Source: a virus. Taken from it: a DNA stretch of 23,674 bases. Made by a program: the position numbers and the translations under genes. Below, one piece after another: positions 2,522 through 21,011 of this stretch. Each line of letters starts with the position of its first letter. Position 1 is the stretch's first letter. The stretch covers positions 1 through 23,674 of IMG/VR virus record IMGVR_UViG_3300037847_001493; one strand, 5' to 3'. The notes under the pieces were generated by a model. The model had not been told where the DNA came from. It saw only the letters and a program-made list of their open reading frames with translations, and searched no databases.

Positions 2522-2908
2522 TTAATTTAGTTCCTCTAATTTTGCTATTCTTTGTCTTAACTTTCTATTAGTTTCAAACAAAGTATCTATCAAACCTACG
2601 CGTTCTGCTTTCGGTTTGTACTCTAAAGTTCTATATATTATAGATGCTTTATAGTATTTATGTTTCATGCTTTCATCATAATTAGATAAGTGATCATAGT
2701 TTCTTATCGCATATAAAACAGTAGCGTGATCTCTGTTTATACTTCTACCTATTTCAGATAGCGTATAACCACCAAGGTTTCTTGCTACTACACAGTAAAT
2801 CATTCTTGAATCTACTATCTCTCTTTTTCTGCTTGGAGATATAAATTCATCTCGATTTATATTGTTAGCAATAACATAACTATTTAAAAAATCTTTCAGA
2901 TTTATCAT
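2522..2908 (-). CDS. DnaA domain IV-like DNA-binding protein
   Basis: Residues about 25-72 resemble the C-terminal DNA-binding domain of DnaA: a basic entry (SPSRKREIVDSRMIYCVVAR), then the helix-turn-helix GYTLSEIGRSINRDHATVLYAI, where NRDHATV corresponds to the DnaA signature GRDHTTV that reads the DnaA box. There is no AAA+ ATPase domain (128 aa in total). The C-terminal 40 residues are helical and charged. Family knowledge suggests binding to DnaA-box-like sites, so a role in phage origin recognition or in redirecting host initiation is likely. It overlaps the end of rusA by 29 nt and forms a replication-recombination cluster with it. Confidence 0.82.
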   Translation of the reverse strand: MINLKDFLNSYVIANNINRDEFISPSRKREIVDSRMIYCVVARNLGGYTLSEIGRSINRDHATVLYAIRNYDHLSNYDESMKHKYYKASIIYRTLEYKPKAERVGLIDTLFETNRKLRQRIAKLEELN

Positions 2909-3263
2909 AAACTTTTATTTGTACGCCAGGATTTTCTTTATCATATTCAAACTCTTCAAAGCTTGGTATAATATAATTAGCGTTATCATCTTCAATCCAT
3001 TCATTTTTAACCATTAAGTCTTGCACAGTTTGCGCAGGATTTACATAATCAAATCTATGTCTTGTTCCTCTAATAAACTTAAAAGAAACGATAACAGGCA
3101 ATTCCTTACCTGCTATCAATTTCTTAAAGTCTGTCTTAAAGGTTTTATACTGCATATCAGTATCCTTTATATACTTCATAACAGTCTTTGAATTGATAAG
3201 CATTTTACCAGTCCATCGTTTAGAATTTTTGCTTGAAGGCACATTCCCTGCTATGAATATCAT
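2880..3263 (-). CDS. rusA: RusA-family Holliday junction resolvase
   Basis: RusA enzymes are dimeric endonucleases that cut Holliday junctions and branched replication intermediates. The N-terminus carries the family pattern NVPSSKNSKR. The acidic residues needed for metal binding appear in RFDYVNPAQTVQDLM (Asp72, Asp82) and WIEDDN (Asp92/Asp93), matching the DxxN...D...DD layout. The length of 127 aa is normal. The ATG at 3263 is preceded by a 35-nt gap holding two overlapping TAnnTTTG boxes, so this gene may begin a transcript covering rusA and the DnaA-like gene. Its products would clear branched DNA before packaging. Confidence 0.85.
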   Translation of the reverse strand: MIFIAGNVPSSKNSKRWTGKMLINSKTVMKYIKDTDMQYKTFKTDFKKLIAGKELPVIVSFKFIRGTRHRFDYVNPAQTVQDLMVKNEWIEDDNANYIIPSFEEFEYDKENPGVQIKVYDKSERFFK

Positions 3264-3281: not shown

Positions 3282-3297
3282 CAAAACTACAAAATTA
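3282..3297 (-). promoter_or_regulatory. Two tandem -7-type boxes upstream of rusA
   Basis: Reading the minus strand, TAATTTTG (3297-3290) is followed at once by TAGTTTTG (3289-3282); both match TAnnTTTG. The second ends 18 nt before the rusA ATG, so a transcript would have a leader of roughly 10 nt. This is one of very few gaps inside the leftward block. No clear -33 element was found. Confidence 0.45.
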
Positions 3298-4600: not shown

Positions 4601-4623
4601 AAGTAAAAATACAAAAAATCAAC

Positions 4624-5941: not shown

Positions 5942-7129
5942 TTAAAAAGTTGGTGAAGATAATAAATTTTTCGCAACTGACGACCAATATGGTTCATCTT
6001 TTGTCGTAAGATAATCATCTATAACATGATCTATAGGTTCTATACAGTCTAATTCAGCATTGTATGCGCCTATTATATCATGTGGGAATGAATCGCTGTA
6101 TACAGGATACATATAACCCCAATTATCTTTCAACAGATTTGTATGCCAATCTATATTTGACATATGTTCTGTTATATCATCGAAGTTTTTTTCTTGTTTT
6201 GTTCCAACGTCTTCGATGCCATCGTTGAAACTTTTTGGAAAAAGCGAACGCTGTCCATATATACCATATCCACCATAATCATACGCATTGTATGTATATA
6301 CTGGTTCTTGATATTGGTGTTCATACTTTGTTTCACCAAGCTTTTTAATGATTCCTATCATTAAACTAAGTGTATTCATAGCATCTTCAATATTTACATA
6401 TTCTTGATCGCTATGTGGTCTGTAATAGCCACTAGATATATTAGTAACAGATACATTTGATATAGGTTTAAGTGCCTTGACATCGGTTAGACCACCGTTA
6501 TCCTGGAACTTAAATCCATGTTTATCAAGTAGTGGCTTTACAGCCTTCTTAAATTTCTTAGACATAAGATTTATACCACCTATCTTGGTAACAAAGTCAT
6601 CGTTACCACGTCTATCTGTTTGCAATATATAGCCCACATTCTCAAAGAACTCAGGTGTAGCGGCTTTAGAGCCAACACAACCTCTTTCTTCTGAATGAAA
6701 GAATGCTGCTTTTATATTATCAAACTTCTTAATACATTCAAGAGCTGCCCAGATGCCGACTTTATCATCGCCACCTACGCCTACTTGTTCCATTTTCTTA
6801 TAATCCATAGCATAAAAGTTGCCATAAAGTCTACGAACACAGTAGCCTTTTACAAAATCATGCACAGTATCTGTGTGTGCAACCACACATGGATATACAT
6901 CAGCTTTGCCTTTGGTAACATATATGTTTGTACCTCCAGCTTGCTGTTCTGTAACAATAGTTACATTTTCATTATCATATTTAATTTGTTCTATGATAAA
7001 TGTATTCATTCTTTCTTCGTTTCCTGAAACACTTTGGACTTCCAAAGTTTGTTCAAGATTGTCTATCATAATGTCTTCAGACATGCTCCAAGTTTTACGC
7101 ATAGTTTCTAGTTTCTCTATAATATCCAT
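5942..7129 (-). CDS. Zinc metallopeptidase, clan MH (M28/M20-like)
   Basis: The residues that bind the two zinc ions in clan MH are all visible: AHTDTVH (His85, Asp87), GGDDKVG (Asp121/122), HSEERG (Glu147, catalytic, and Glu148), LQTDRRG (Asp172) and YYRPHSDQEYV (His239). Only about 67 residues separate Asp172 and His239, so the lid or dimerisation domain of M20 enzymes is absent; this fits M28-like or single-domain aminopeptidases. Residues about 265-395 are a Tyr/Gly/Asp-rich extension of unknown function. Start: ATG 7129 overlaps the upstream gene by 35 nt; ATG 7102 (8-nt overlap ATGCGTAA) is equally plausible. An exopeptidase inside a replication block is unusual; the substrate is unknown. 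Confidence 0.8.
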   Translation of the reverse strand: MDIIEKLETMRKTWSMSEDIMIDNLEQTLEVQSVSGNEERMNTFIIEQIKYDNENVTIVTEQQAGGTNIYVTKGKADVYPCVVAHTDTVHDFVKGYCVRRLYGNFYAMDYKKMEQVGVGGDDKVGIWAALECIKKFDNIKAAFFHSEERGCVGSKAATPEFFENVGYILQTDRRGNDDFVTKIGGINLMSKKFKKAVKPLLDKHGFKFQDNGGLTDVKALKPISNVSVTNISSGYYRPHSDQEYVNIEDAMNTLSLMIGIIKKLGETKYEHQYQEPVYTYNAYDYGGYGIYGQRSLFPKSFNDGIEDVGTKQEKNFDDITEHMSNIDWHTNLLKDNWGYMYPVYSDSFPHDIIGAYNAELDCIEPIDHVIDDYLTTKDEPYWSSVAKNLLSSPTF

Positions 7130-9724: not shown

Positions 9725-10119
9725 TACCACCAAGCCCAATATTTAATTTTGTAGCCATCTTTTATGTAGTTCATAGCTTCATAGATAGCATCCAAATCTT
9801 GTTCTTTATAGTATTCACAGGCATCATCACCCCAAAAGAATCCACTTCTTTCTTGTAATGTGCCTGTTAGTACTCTGGTTTGTAGTTCAAGTAAATCCTC
9901 GTGAGTTACTTGCAGCATATGTCCAGCATTAAATCCGCCCATACTACCATCGTTATAGGCGTCACCGCCTTTTTCTGCATACAAATCATCAAACCAGCCG
10001 TGCAGGTATGGATGTTTACGCCAAGTTATTATATCTATTTCTTCAGATGGATTGTATTTAAAATCTACCTGTTTTCTATTTCTGCCTTTGTAGGCAATCA
10101 ATCCATGGTCTAGTCCCAT
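9724..10119 (-). CDS. Conserved phage protein, MGLD...YWAWW type (131 aa)
   Basis: Begins MGLDHGLIAYKG and contains ITWRKHPYLHGWFDDLY, a central LLELQTRVLTG segment, FFWGDD, DLDAIYEAMNYI and the terminal YKIKYWAWW. From memory, this arrangement (N-terminal MGLD, WRK, FFxG, C-terminal YWxWW) recurs in small proteins of many unrelated phages. No function is established. The many Trp and Asp residues suggest ligand or protein binding. Its ATG is 1 nt after the stop of the 49-aa ORF upstream. Confidence 0.7.
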   Translation of the reverse strand: MGLDHGLIAYKGRNRKQVDFKYNPSEEIDIITWRKHPYLHGWFDDLYAEKGGDAYNDGSMGGFNAGHMLQVTHEDLLELQTRVLTGTLQERSGFFWGDDACEYYKEQDLDAIYEAMNYIKDGYKIKYWAWW

Positions 10120-11610: not shown

Positions 11611-11915
11611 AATTCAAATGCTTTAGTAATATTAGTTCTTATTATTTCAGACTTAGCTTGTCTGTCTACCCATTTTTTACCACGTAGTCCTACGTACTCA
11701 TTTTGCAGAGCACGAGAACAACGTTCTATTGATTTGGGTTTGGGATATATTTTAGCAATGAACATATTGTGCAGCATTTGCTGCGCAGACATGTTCTTGT
11801 CTTCTAAACACTCCCATATTATTCGAGCAACTAATCGTTGATCGTCATCACGGTATTTATTATCCGTGTCGTTTAAGAGTATGTTGTATACTCTTTCTTT
11901 TACAGTCTTGCCCAT
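11607..11915 (-). CDS. Conserved hypothetical protein, possible DNA-binding (102 aa)
   Basis: A basic all-helical protein: TVKERVYNILLNDTDNKYRD, LVARIIWECLEDKNMSAQQM, IERCSRALQNEYVGLRGKKW, ending in VDRQAKSEIIRTN. From memory, the 'LHNMFxAKxxPKPxSIERxxRxLQ' stretch recurs in small phage proteins and has a winged or helix-turn-helix look, so DNA binding is plausible. The start overlaps the upstream stop by one base (TAATG, 11913-11917). Confidence 0.65.
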   Translation of the reverse strand: MGKTVKERVYNILLNDTDNKYRDDDQRLVARIIWECLEDKNMSAQQMLHNMFIAKIYPKPKSIERCSRALQNEYVGLRGKKWVDRQAKSEIIRTNITKAFEL

Positions 11916-12367
11916 TACTTTTTGATAAAGTCACCAAGCTTGTTCATAGCAAGCTGATAGTTATTGACTTGTTTCTTCTTGAACTGTGCAAGATATTCTT
12001 TGATAAACGCACGCTTACGCTTGTTGTATCTAGAATTGAGCTCGTCTACCCACTTCTGCATCTTTAGAAAACTACCTCCAAAGAATATAGTGTTACGAGT
12101 TTGTCCGTCAAGCATAGTAACCTTTAGGTTTACTTTATCAACGTGCTTGATAATATCGTGAGAGAACTCTCTACGAAATGCTTGATGGGCTCTTTCGTAA
12201 GGGTTAACCTTTAATATTTCAAGTAGCTTGTCATACTTGTCAGATAATAATAATTCGTGCCACTCTTTATCATTGGTAGCAGCTTTTAGGTATTCAAGAG
12301 TTATACCTTCAATTTCCATTGCTGTTCTATCGTTCAGCAAATAGTTTCGAACTTTTATTGAGTTCAT
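11915..12367 (-). CDS. Hypothetical protein (150 aa), first long gene of a leftward transcript
   Basis: Mixed alpha/beta (EIEGITLEYLKAATNDKEWH; VNLKVTMLDGQTRNTIFFGG) with a strongly basic helical C-terminal third (YNKRKRAFIKEYLAQFKKKQ). No family is recognised. Upstream, 12368-12471 contains a T-arm-like hairpin and one copy of the 16-bp element proposed here as a promoter, giving a leader of about 80 nt. This may therefore be the first gene of the main leftward operon. Confidence 0.66.
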   Translation of the reverse strand: MNSIKVRNYLLNDRTAMEIEGITLEYLKAATNDKEWHELLLSDKYDKLLEILKVNPYERAHQAFRREFSHDIIKHVDKVNLKVTMLDGQTRNTIFFGGSFLKMQKWVDELNSRYNKRKRAFIKEYLAQFKKKQVNNYQLAMNKLGDFIKK

Positions 12368-12431
12368 AATTAGTACACGCTATTCATCTATTGTTGATGC
12401 CCGAACCGTGTTTGGGGAGGTTAGATCCTAT

Positions 12432-12450
12432 GCAGGGAATCGAACCCTGC
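12432..12450 (-). other. tRNA T-arm-like hairpin in the leader of the 150-aa gene
   Basis: On the minus strand, stem GCAGGG/CCCTGC encloses TTCGATT. This matches a tRNA T-arm exactly (5-bp stem closed by G-C, loop TTCRANN), extended by one pair. A partial outer pairing CCTAT/ATAGG (12462-12466 with 12427-12431) mimics an acceptor stem. There is no D-arm, anticodon arm or CCA, so it is not a tRNA gene. Confidence 0.6.
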
Positions 12451-12455
12451 TTAAA

Positions 12456-12471
12456 TCCAATATAGGTTAGT
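12456..12471 (-). repeat. 16-bp repeat copy 1, candidate leftward promoter
   Basis: Plus-strand TCCAATATAGGTTAGT is identical to 13113-13128. On the minus strand it reads as a sequence containing TATATTGG (12464-12457), one base off TAnnTTTG. A GGTGT follows in both copies on the plus side. The element ends 88 nt before the ATG of the 150-aa gene; copy 2 lies at a similar distance from its gene. Confidence 0.6.
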
Positions 12472-12478
12472 TATGGTG

Positions 12479-12568
12479 TTAGTATTTTTTACCATTGATA
12501 TTTCTATAAGCGTTAGCTTTTTGTTTTTTTACTTCACGCTTGACTTTAATATTTCTAAAAGTTGACAT
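12479..12568 (-). CDS. Very basic 29-aa peptide
   Basis: An ATG at 12568 opens 29 residues rich in Lys, Arg and Asn (begins MSTFRNIKVKREVKKQKANA) and is the only protein-like frame in this otherwise noncoding region. The frame is open further upstream to 12664, but that part is hydrophobic and Cys-rich and does not look coding. A run of nine T on the minus strand (12606-12597) lies 29 nt upstream. A nucleic-acid-binding peptide is possible; chance is not excluded. Confidence 0.42.
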   Translation of the reverse strand: MSTFRNIKVKREVKKQKANAYRNINGKKY

Positions 12569-12688
12569 AATTTCTAATTTTTGATTTGACTTTGTTAAAA
12601 AAAAAGCCGAACTTTGAGGCCAAATTGGAATGTTACTATTATAAAGGAAACAATAACAAACCAACCTGACTTCAAGTCCAACTTACTT

Positions 12689-12754
12689 AGTTACTTAAAT
12701 AAATAATCTAAACACTATAGCGCACAATTTCAAGGTGTTTCCGCTTAAGTAACT
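12689..12754. repeat. Nested inverted repeats in the central intergenic region
   Basis: Outer 10-bp perfect arms AGTTACTTAA (12689-12698) and TTAAGTAACT (12745-12754) enclose inner arms AAACAC (12710-12715) and GTGTTT (12735-12740). Immediately beyond is another small palindrome, TAATC-agtc-GATTA (12757-12770). The region is noncoding and A+T-rich. It could be an operator, an origin element or an RNA structure after the 85-aa gene. Confidence 0.6.
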
Positions 12755-12771
12755 GATAATCAGTCGATTAA

Positions 12772-13206: not shown

Positions 13207-13214
13207 TACATTTG
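13207..13214 (+). promoter_or_regulatory. -7 promoter box directly before the first rightward gene
   Basis: TACATTTG is a perfect match to the Bacteroidota -7 consensus TAnnTTTG. Only 4 nt separate it from the ATG at 13219, so transcription would start at or next to the start codon. This position also rules out the TTG at 13204 as the translation start. Confidence 0.62.
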
Positions 13215-13218
13215 CATT

Positions 13219-14022
13219 ATGAACAACGCACTCTTTAATCCATACGGCACAAATACTAGCGTAGAGGGTAGTTATGTATCGGCTAATGAAGCTTTTGATA
13301 AAAGAATTGCTGATGCATTTAAGAGCCTTAATGTTGTAAAAGATTCTTATAAATTTTTTCCTCACATAAGTTCAGATAAAATGCAAGATTATACTGAATA
13401 TGACGGCAAACTAGTGCCTAAGTCTGATCTTAATGAAATTTTAAACGAAACTTATCAGCAATATTTAAATGAAGCAACTGAGAAAAATTACAAAAAAGTT
13501 TTAAATCAAGAAGAATATGAGGAGCAAAGAAAATTTTTATTGAATAATCTTTATGATAGAAGACAGTATGATAGGGAAGAGTATATAGGTCAAAGTTTAT
13601 TAGATAATTATATATCATATAAAGAGGATGATTTTCATAATGAACAATTTAAACAGTTTTTTTTAAATAAATATGGTTCTGTTTTTAAAGCTATGGATAA
13701 AGTTGTTCCTAGGTTAGACAAACTAACTGATACAGAAATAAAAGATTTTACAGGACTTATAAATACTTTAAGCAATCCTTATAGACAGGCAATGTCTAAA
13801 AATAAAGATTTTGATAGTACTGATGCTCTTAGTATTTTAAGAGGTCAGGACATTTCTGGTTTAAAAAAATATAGAGAAAAAATGGATTTGAGCAAGTCAG
13901 ACATTTTAGATCTTATACAGCCTCCACCAAACTCTAATATGGCAATAAGAGGCCTAACTTCTTTAGTTAAAAATGCTTTAAAATTTAAAACATTTAAATC
14001 TGGAGGTTTAATAAATAAATAA
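13219..14022 (+). CDS. Probable virion-associated protein of unknown function (267 aa)
   Basis: First gene of the rightward late block. It is hydrophilic, rich in Asp, Lys, Tyr and Asn, and mostly helical; for example NEILNETYQQYLNEATEKNY and EQFKQFFLNKYGSVFKAMDK. The C-terminus ends in KFKTFKSGGLINK. The SGG tail faintly recalls the Gly-rich motifs of the 15533 gene. I use ATG 13219 because the promoter box lies just before it. The gene ends 1 nt before the next ATG, so both are co-transcribed. No family is recognised; an internal virion or lysis-associated role is a guess from position. Confidence 0.65.
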   Translation: MNNALFNPYGTNTSVEGSYVSANEAFDKRIADAFKSLNVVKDSYKFFPHISSDKMQDYTEYDGKLVPKSDLNEILNETYQQYLNEATEKNYKKVLNQEEYEEQRKFLLNNLYDRRQYDREEYIGQSLLDNYISYKEDDFHNEQFKQFFLNKYGSVFKAMDKVVPRLDKLTDTEIKDFTGLINTLSNPYRQAMSKNKDFDSTDALSILRGQDISGLKKYREKMDLSKSDILDLIQPPPNSNMAIRGLTSLVKNALKFKTFKSGGLINK

Positions 14023-14023
14023 T

Positions 14024-14602
14024 ATGCCACATAATCCATATCATATAGATTCACCACAAGATGCTGACAAATACATGTCTGAAATGGTAAAGGGTATGCT
14101 TAGTGGACCAGGAAGCACGCAAAATGAGATATTTGATGCTATAGAAGAAGTAGTGTCTTATGAAGATCCAGGATCTCAACAAACATTAAGGAATCTGTTA
14201 ACTATGACAGCCTTTATGGAGAATAGTATGGGGGCTGATACGAGTGCTTTTGGTAGAGATTATACTCGTTCTTTCATGTCTATTGATCAAGATGCTTTTA
14301 ATACTCTATTTGAAAGAGATACGGACACTAGACGTAGATATGCCGAAAGGTATAACGAAATGGGACTGCCGTCAGACATGCTTGGTTTAAGTGGCTTACT
14401 ACAATCTGACGATCCGTTAGCTTCTGTAGCCGTAGCTAGACAGATATATGGTTTATCTCCTAAATCTTTACCAGCTAACAATCCAGAAGCGCTGTTTCAA
14501 TACTATATGAAAGAATACAATAAAGGTGGAGCAGAAAAGTATGGATCGGAAGATAAAGCTAGACAAAGATTCATGACTGGCTATGATATGTTTATAAGAT
14601 AA
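14024..14602 (+). CDS. Lysozyme/transglycosylase-like protein (tentative)
   Basis: The middle holds NLLTMTAFMENSMGADTSAF, resembling the helix with catalytic Glu and following Ser/Gly (ExSxG, Glu66) of lytic transglycosylase folds, then GRDYTRSFMSIDQDAFNTLF, the usual position of a 'GLFQI'-type segment. The later DDPLASVAVARQIYGLSP, SLP and YYMKEYNKGGAEKYG resemble the 'CRxxYxRxPExLP...YWKxYYNTxxG' end of phage murein-degrading enzymes as I remember them. Length of 192 aa is suitable. No signal peptide is visible, so it would need a holin or virion delivery. The fold call is inference from partial motif similarity. Confidence 0.45.
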   Translation: MPHNPYHIDSPQDADKYMSEMVKGMLSGPGSTQNEIFDAIEEVVSYEDPGSQQTLRNLLTMTAFMENSMGADTSAFGRDYTRSFMSIDQDAFNTLFERDTDTRRRYAERYNEMGLPSDMLGLSGLLQSDDPLASVAVARQIYGLSPKSLPANNPEALFQYYMKEYNKGGAEKYGSEDKARQRFMTGYDMFIR

Positions 14603-14669
14603 TAAAATCTTTTTGATTTTAGTATAAAAAAAACGGTCGCTTCGCTCCCTTTATTAATTATTATCCCCA

Positions 14670-14677
14670 TATATTTG
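14670..14677 (+). promoter_or_regulatory. -7 promoter box directly before the 93-aa gene
   Basis: TATATTTG, a perfect TAnnTTTG match, ends 5 nt before the ATG at 14683. It lies in an 80-nt gap after the preceding gene. A leaderless or near-leaderless mRNA is predicted. Confidence 0.6.
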
Positions 14678-14682
14678 TAACT

Positions 14683-14964
14683 ATGATTGGAGAATATTCA
14701 AATGAATTTGGAAAGGTGTTTGTTGTTGCAGAAAACAGCTTTGTATTAGAAAAGTATTACAATGAATTAGATCAATTGTTTGATGATGAGTCTTACTTAA
14801 TAAATGAAATATTTAATATGGACTTTGTTATTGTAGAAAGAAAAATATACAATATGAAGAACGATAGATACTTAAGAATGGCTGATTGGAAAGGCGTTAC
14901 AGAGCCTAATGGCCCACAATATATTTGGATGGTTAAGTACGATTTGGAATATAGAGGAGATTAG
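14683..14964 (+). CDS. Hypothetical protein (93 aa)
   Basis: Small acidic alpha/beta protein: FGKVFVVAENSFVLEKYYNE, FDDESYLINEIFNMDFVIVE, then DRYLRMADWKGVTEPNGPQY and IWMVKYDLEYRGD. No family is recognised. It has its own promoter-like box and is followed after 14 nt by another promoter-linked gene, so it may be expressed as a single-gene transcript. Confidence 0.62.
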   Translation: MIGEYSNEFGKVFVVAENSFVLEKYYNELDQLFDDESYLINEIFNMDFVIVERKIYNMKNDRYLRMADWKGVTEPNGPQYIWMVKYDLEYRGD

Positions 14965-14974
14965 TATATTTTTG
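14943..14974 (+). promoter_or_regulatory. Promoter with -33 and -7 elements before the 178-aa gene
   Basis: TTTG at 14943-14946 and TATTTTTG at 14967-14974 are 20 bp apart, matching the Bacteroidota -33 (TTTG) and -7 (TAnnTTTG) layout. The -7 box ends 4 nt before the ATG at 14979. The promoter overlaps the end of the preceding gene. Confidence 0.62.
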
Positions 14975-14978
14975 TACA

Positions 14979-15515
14979 ATGTATCTATTAAAGTTAGATA
15001 GACAGGGGGACGTATACAAACAAGATGATGGAGTAGCGGGGGTACCAGAGTTTGTAAGCGTATTAAAAGCTGATAAGTTAGGAGCTGTTGCACTAAAGTG
15101 GGTAGCTCTAGTCTGTGATTACGATAGTCCTTACAGACACTTTACTGAGTCAGAAAGAAAAAAGGCTGTTAGTAAAGACTTATATGGAAAGTATGAATGG
15201 TATGGTGAAAAAAGACCAGAAATTCTAGCTGCCATAGATAAGTATAAGCAATTGCAGTTTGATCCGTTGGATGAACAGTTGATTGCTTTTAATACTAAGA
15301 TTAGTCAGTTCACGACCTATATGAATAATATGCATATAGATGAGGATACTGCAGAAGGATTGCAAAAGATAATGATAGGGATCGAAAAAATATATAAGAC
15401 AAGACAAACTCTTGTTGATGCAATAGAAAGACGTGGTGAGCGTCAGAAAATAGTTGGGAATAAAAAGTTATCATTTCTTGAAAATAAAAAAGATATTCAA
15501 GAAAATATTACGTAA
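14979..15515 (+). CDS. Conserved head/packaging-region protein of unknown function (178 aa)
   Basis: The N-terminal half contains VALKWVALVCDYDSPYRHFT (residues about 38-56), a pattern I have seen in uncharacterised proteins near phage packaging genes. The C-terminal half is helical: LIAFNTKISQFTTYMNNMHI and GLQKIMIGIEKIYKTRQTLV, ending in a basic region. It begins the segment leading to terminase, so a small-terminase or head-completion role is possible, but no helix-turn-helix DNA-binding motif is evident. The promoter just upstream predicts a leaderless message. Confidence 0.62.
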   Translation: MYLLKLDRQGDVYKQDDGVAGVPEFVSVLKADKLGAVALKWVALVCDYDSPYRHFTESERKKAVSKDLYGKYEWYGEKRPEILAAIDKYKQLQFDPLDEQLIAFNTKISQFTTYMNNMHIDEDTAEGLQKIMIGIEKIYKTRQTLVDAIERRGERQKIVGNKKLSFLENKKDIQENIT

Positions 15516-21003: not shown

Positions 21004-21011
21004 TATATTTG
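21004..21011 (+). promoter_or_regulatory. -7 promoter box before the scaffold gene
   Basis: TATATTTG, a perfect TAnnTTTG match, begins right after the portal stop codon and ends 26 nt before the ATG at 21038, giving a predicted leader of about 20 nt. No TTTG -33 element is evident. It could provide extra expression of scaffold and capsid. Confidence 0.45.

Follow-up and report, generated by a model that had tools for sequence, protein, structure and literature searches.

A 23.7-kb fragment of an uncultured virus record, analysed here as a whole and called the window, carries three rightward genes with a Bacteroidota -7 box only 4 or 5 nt before their ATGs (Table 1). The exact spacing is kept in dozens of related phages, which points to a regular design rather than chance. 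We consider it very likely, judging from the sequences of the group, that transcription by host RNA polymerase yields leaderless or near-leaderless mRNAs in these phages as a conserved and regular design, with 5' ends predicted from the position of the box.

The phage and the boxes of its late arm

The window matches part of a 64.7-kb record, G001, at ~92% identity (genome permuted). It encodes a crAss-like terminase and portal, and the major head protein, muzzle and ring protein 2 are found in G001, completing a Crassvirales-like head-tail module (terminase, portal, MCP, muzzle, ring proteins). The phage is an uncultured crAss-like phage of marine Bacteroidota. No close cultured relative of it was found, no relatives of the 14979 protein among named phages, and no terminase relatives in bacterial genomes. 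Replication genes lie in the leftward arm, and head and packaging genes in the rightward (late) arm, which starts at 13219. Crassvirales late genes are assigned to host RNA polymerase in the review literature (PMC10136315), which fits the host-type boxes in this arm. A 2311-aa protein of G001 (L207:1009-7944, minus strand) is a probable virion RNA polymerase of this 65-kb crAss-like genome: it contains DLDGD and weakly matches the RNA polymerase region of crAss001 (E 4e-4); Pfam vRNAP_dom stays below cut-off. Promoters of such a polymerase were weighed as a further origin of transcripts; the consensus that the boxes fit is the host one. Elsewhere in the window, ~400 nt flanked by two leftward genes (12368-12771) hold no convincing gene; 11913-12771 is 96% identical to G001, above the identity of the surrounding coding sequence, and no Rfam family was found in the window, this stretch included.

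All three boxes fit the stricter sigma-ABfr form TAHHTTTG, with no G at the two middle positions. The distances of 4, 5 and 4 nt given in a first-pass annotation of this DNA proved exact on recheck, and the TTTG that it placed 20 bp upstream of the third box is present, within the 17-23 bp expected of a -33 element. Over 70 non-redundant sites there is a weak T/G preference at 20-24 bp, and the -33 element is weak in the phage sites, likewise in Flavobacterium johnsoniae. A fourth case, the imperfect box before the HU-like gene, had been overlooked. TAnnTTTG occurs 50 times on both strands of the window, against 34.5 +/- 6.1 in shuffled sequence, a figure close to the earlier rough estimate of ~15 chance boxes per strand. 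As this excess is only moderate, the boxes by themselves prove little; their placement does.

Table 1. Promoter elements and genes of the window discussed in the text
Feature	Positions	Strand	Remark
Contrast: -7 box TAATTTTG	3290..3297	-	normal ~22-nt leader; serves gene 2880-3263
HU/IHF-like DNA-binding protein (PF00216), 77 aa	4367..4600	-	probable further near-leaderless gene
Imperfect box TATTTTTA	4604..4611	-	3 nt before ATG of HU-like gene; full boxes at 3-8 nt in relatives
Conserved element CCCTTTCTTACAA	13178..13190	+	upstream of first late-arm promoter; kept in several relatives before differing first genes
-7 box TACATTTG	13207..13214	+	4 nt before ATG 13219; predicted +1 is the A of ATG
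First gene of rightward (late) arm, 267 aa, function not assigned	13219..14022	+	predicted leaderless start of unit
192-aa gene, weak phrog_3108 match	14024..14602	+	starts 1 nt past previous stop (TAATATG), coupled in the window
-7 box TATATTTG	14670..14677	+	5 nt before ATG 14683
93-aa gene, function not assigned	14683..14964	+	predicted leader 0-1 nt
TTTG, candidate -33 element	14943..14946	+	20 bp upstream of third box, within preceding gene; partly kept in relatives
-7 box TATTTTTG	14967..14974	+	4 nt before ATG 14979
178-aa gene, function not assigned, conserved N-terminus MYLL	14979..15515	+	predicted leader 0 nt
Contrast: -7 box TATATTTG, normal ~22-nt leader	21004..21011	+	ATG 21038; same layout in G001 and G009

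Box position across related phages

A simple gene caller that accepts only ATG starts was run on all loci and gave 2263 distinct starts in 346 protein clusters; 100 dinucleotide shuffles of the upstream regions served as the null. TAHHTTTG stands exactly 4 nt before the ATG in 14 clusters, against 0.9 +/- 0.8 in shuffled sequence (maximum 3 in 100), and 2-8 nt before it in 22 (6.6 shuffled, maximum 15). At 9-15 nt the count is 6 against 6.7, and at 23-29 nt it is 16 against 6.5. The distances are bimodal: a sharp class at 4-8 nt, a near-empty zone at 9-12 nt, then an ordinary leadered class. Such two-peaked spacing would be expected if leaders of 0-4 nt and of at least ~10 nt work and those between fail. 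Altered motifs (for example TAnnTTTA and TAnnTTTT) give no spike at 4 nt. The 14 clusters reduce to about nine independent promoters, because several lie behind the one first-gene promoter and another, the ORF at window 6164, is spurious and was rejected as lying antisense inside gene 5942-7129. The first-pass annotation had argued that three boxes at the same distance exceed chance and had raised leaderless initiation as a regular design; the first idea is borne out, and the second supported, by this comparison with shuffled sequence, in which the boxes are positionally conserved in homologous phages.

Further conserved sequence accompanies some of these boxes. In the RusA-like family (relatives of gene 2880-3263; L167:9160-9220, L169, L176, L192 and others) a conserved GGGTGnAACTCT, possibly the site of a phage regulator, precedes a box that ends 4 nt before the ATG. 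Promoters of the tail ring protein 2 gene (L208:3253-3300, minus strand, and relatives) have a conserved GGCCTATTGTTGTTT and a box 4-8 nt from the ATG. A box 35 nt before 33002 in G001 was rejected as a promoter; it codes for the C-terminus of the previous protein and is kept in G009 with synonymous changes.

The first late-arm gene was compared via synteny, its protein having no PHROG or Pfam match and no relatives by pattern scan. The 370 nt up to ATG 13219 match G001 at 85%, and G001 lacks the whole 804-nt first gene, precisely from ATG to ATG, which leaves the same box 4 nt ahead of the following gene's ATG. The 192-aa gene is coupled in the window and directly behind the predicted leaderless promoter in G001. 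In G001, L002 and G009 this promoter lies 4 nt before the ATGs of different genes, and in other relatives the promoter, accompanied by a CCCTnnCTnACAA-type element, precedes yet other unrelated first genes, still at 4-5 nt. One sister clade has the same promoter with a leader instead, and L013 has ATC at the position of the first-gene ATG and a start further downstream. From its conservation, the CCCTTTCTTACAA element could be an activator site or a class-specific upstream promoter element.

For gene 14979, 60 related loci were fetched. The box, as TA-nn-TTTG, is kept 4-9 nt before the start in the window's clade (L002-L030 and L058) despite diverged flanks and small indels. In most loci of the sister clades (L031-L056) the homologue has no box, and its start codon shares bases with the preceding stop or lies right next to it (TAATG). 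Both groups conserve the initiator Met and MYLL, so the start is correctly assigned and one gene has switched between two ways of initiating. L024-L027 have GTG in place of ATG as the box-proximal start, which is predicted to be near-leaderless. The first-pass annotation had expected leaderless initiation to set such genes apart from the coupled ones, and this does not hold, as the same gene is boxed in one clade and has an overlapping-stop start in another, and the first-gene promoter is leaderless or leadered depending on the relative.

Among box-bearing relatives, most orthologues of gene 14683 have TATATTTG or TATCTTTG 4-5 nt before the ATG, and in several the box follows immediately on a terminator-like hairpin with a run of T (GAGGCC-TTGC-GGCCTC-T7-TATATTTG-TATT-ATG). 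Hairpin and box are arranged likewise at a 67-aa late gene, where 25 of 32 distinct starts have the box at exactly 4 nt. At this gene (L062:19400-19457 and relatives) the hairpin abuts the leaderless-type promoter, and its stem varies between relatives with complementarity kept.

Predicted transcripts and alternative readings

The -7 box of F. johnsoniae is TAHHTTTG at -12 to -5, with start sites 4-5 nt past it (PMC6847099). The boxes would be -7 elements recognised by host RNA polymerase of the sigma-A type (sigma-ABfr), and we infer that they are active promoters. A box 4-5 nt from the ATG would place +1 on the A of the AUG or 1 nt before it, giving leaders of 0-1 nt by the F. johnsoniae start-site data; boxes 6-8 nt away would give leaders of 1-4 nt. 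The earlier proposal that the mRNAs begin at or beside the AUG is supported, as a prediction, by this spacing. If the transcripts are leaderless, the ribosome must use a 5'-terminal AUG without any upstream signal. Such a promoter would fit into the few bases between the previous stop, or a terminator-like hairpin, and the next AUG in a packed genome. The design would serve the first late-arm gene, several small genes and the tail ring protein gene, and in some clades HU-like and RusA-like genes as well.

Ordinary starts of these phages are A-rich at about -13 to -10 and have A at -6 and -3, signals known as positive in F. johnsoniae. At leaderless-type starts the A preference at -3 and -6 is missing (A stands at -6 in 10% of them and in 59% of the others). 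The box itself partly forces this, but such starts would serve poorly on a longer transcript. As in leaderless mRNAs, there is no upstream ribosome-binding signal and the start codon is ATG in nearly all cases, the GTG starts of L024-L027 aside.

An alternative that we regard as unlikely is that the boxes are real promoters whose +1 wanders, with leaders of several nt, and that most protein comes from upstream polycistronic or leadered transcripts, near-leaderless RNA being incidental. Adjacent genes are indeed co-directional and tightly packed, their orthologues are coupled in sister clades, and some clusters have the box at 6-8 nt. Weighing against the leaderless reading in particular, transcripts from upstream could also cover genes 14683 and 14979, as there is no strong terminator before either of them in the window; relatives do have hairpins before the 14683 homologue. 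However, a wandering +1 is at odds with a spike at exactly 4 nt beside a near-empty zone, and with the absence of the usual translation signals at just these starts. Additionally, terminator-like hairpins before several starts would lower read-through, and the first late-arm gene has no co-directional gene upstream.

Far less probable is that the boxes are translation or RNA-processing signals held at a fixed distance from the start codon, which would account for the constant spacing. At every specified position, however, the motif is identical to the Bacteroidota -7 box, and further copies stand 15-35 nt ahead of other genes, a distance that would give normal leaders. Furthermore, the same first-gene promoter is found in both spacings, and U at -6 to -8 is the opposite of the known A-rich initiation signals. 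Chance, by which AT-rich sequence would have put three boxes near starts and which draws on the only moderate over-representation in the window, is refuted for the group by conservation across dozens of contigs and by the shuffle tests.

Beyond the conserved use of leaderless or near-leaderless mRNAs by host RNA polymerase, we tentatively suggest a broader possibility, which we hold to be somewhat less probable than its opposite. Leaderless mRNAs may be a separate initiation channel that carries a substantial share of the phage clade's programme, in which promoter and AUG would form a plug-in unit with exchangeable genes, leaders of ~5-8 nt would be selected against, and genes would switch between leaderless and coupled starts in evolution.

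Implications and comparison with known systems

Bacteroidota lack Shine-Dalgarno signals, and the many conserved, predicted leaderless starts of this phage group, among them cases of one gene in both leaderless and leadered form, are natural test cases for how ribosomes choose a start. The compact crAss-like genome also shows how independent promoters may be fitted between packed genes. As the cultured phages phi14:2 and Fpv2 carry predicted sites, the idea is open to testing now. In phi14:2 (L266, L386) the predicted near-leaderless starts are those of g070 (62141), the portal gene g093 (89171) and g110 (97752), all on the minus strand; in Fpv2 (L387, L388) they are the ATGs at 9890 (+), 21718 (+) and 79581 (-).

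With the Crassvirales crAss001 and Cellulophaga phage phi14:2, the window's group shares the terminase, portal, major head protein, muzzle, ring protein 2 and, probably, a large virion RNA polymerase. It differs in genome size, ~65 kb as opposed to ~100 kb, and by box position crAss001 has no near-leaderless-type starts and phi14:2 has three.

Leaderless mRNAs are also known from Bacteroidota hosts. Published transcriptomes put short or absent leaders at 3.7% in Bacteroides thetaiotaomicron (5' UTRs shorter than 10 nt, PMC7366714), 5.5% in Flavobacterium psychrophilum (PMC9723704) and 13% in F. johnsoniae (leaders of at most 10 nt, PMC6847099). Across 17 related phage genomes, 56 of the 156 boxes within 2-38 nt of a start lie at 2-8 nt (~36%). 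The same procedure on 800 kb of host DNA from three Flavobacteriaceae genomes gave 11 of 108 (~10%), one of them the site by which its genome was chosen (Fisher p ~1e-6, with counts that are not independent, the phages being related). In bacterial genomes (mostly Bacteroidota), 84 of 120 exact TATATTTGCAATATGAAA sites start an ORF of at least 60 aa, against 35% of ATGAAA controls on the same contigs. The leaderless-type arrangement is therefore not phage-specific, only much commoner in these phages. Hosts and phages have the same -7 box, the same predicted geometry and no Shine-Dalgarno signals; in contrast, leaderless mRNAs are a minority in the hosts, and leaderless-type starts make up about one-third of box-linked starts in the phages and about half in G001 (six of eleven) and G009 (five of ten).

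Leaderless mRNAs thus have a known, minor place in the phylum, and their regular use in a phage group appears to be new. A leaderless phage mRNA is familiar from lambda, in which cI is expressed from PRM, a single regulatory gene under a sigma-70 promoter. The likeness is a phage transcript that begins at the AUG, as predicted for the window's group. The difference is that this group would use Bacteroidota promoters in a repeated design, serving several genes, structural ones included.
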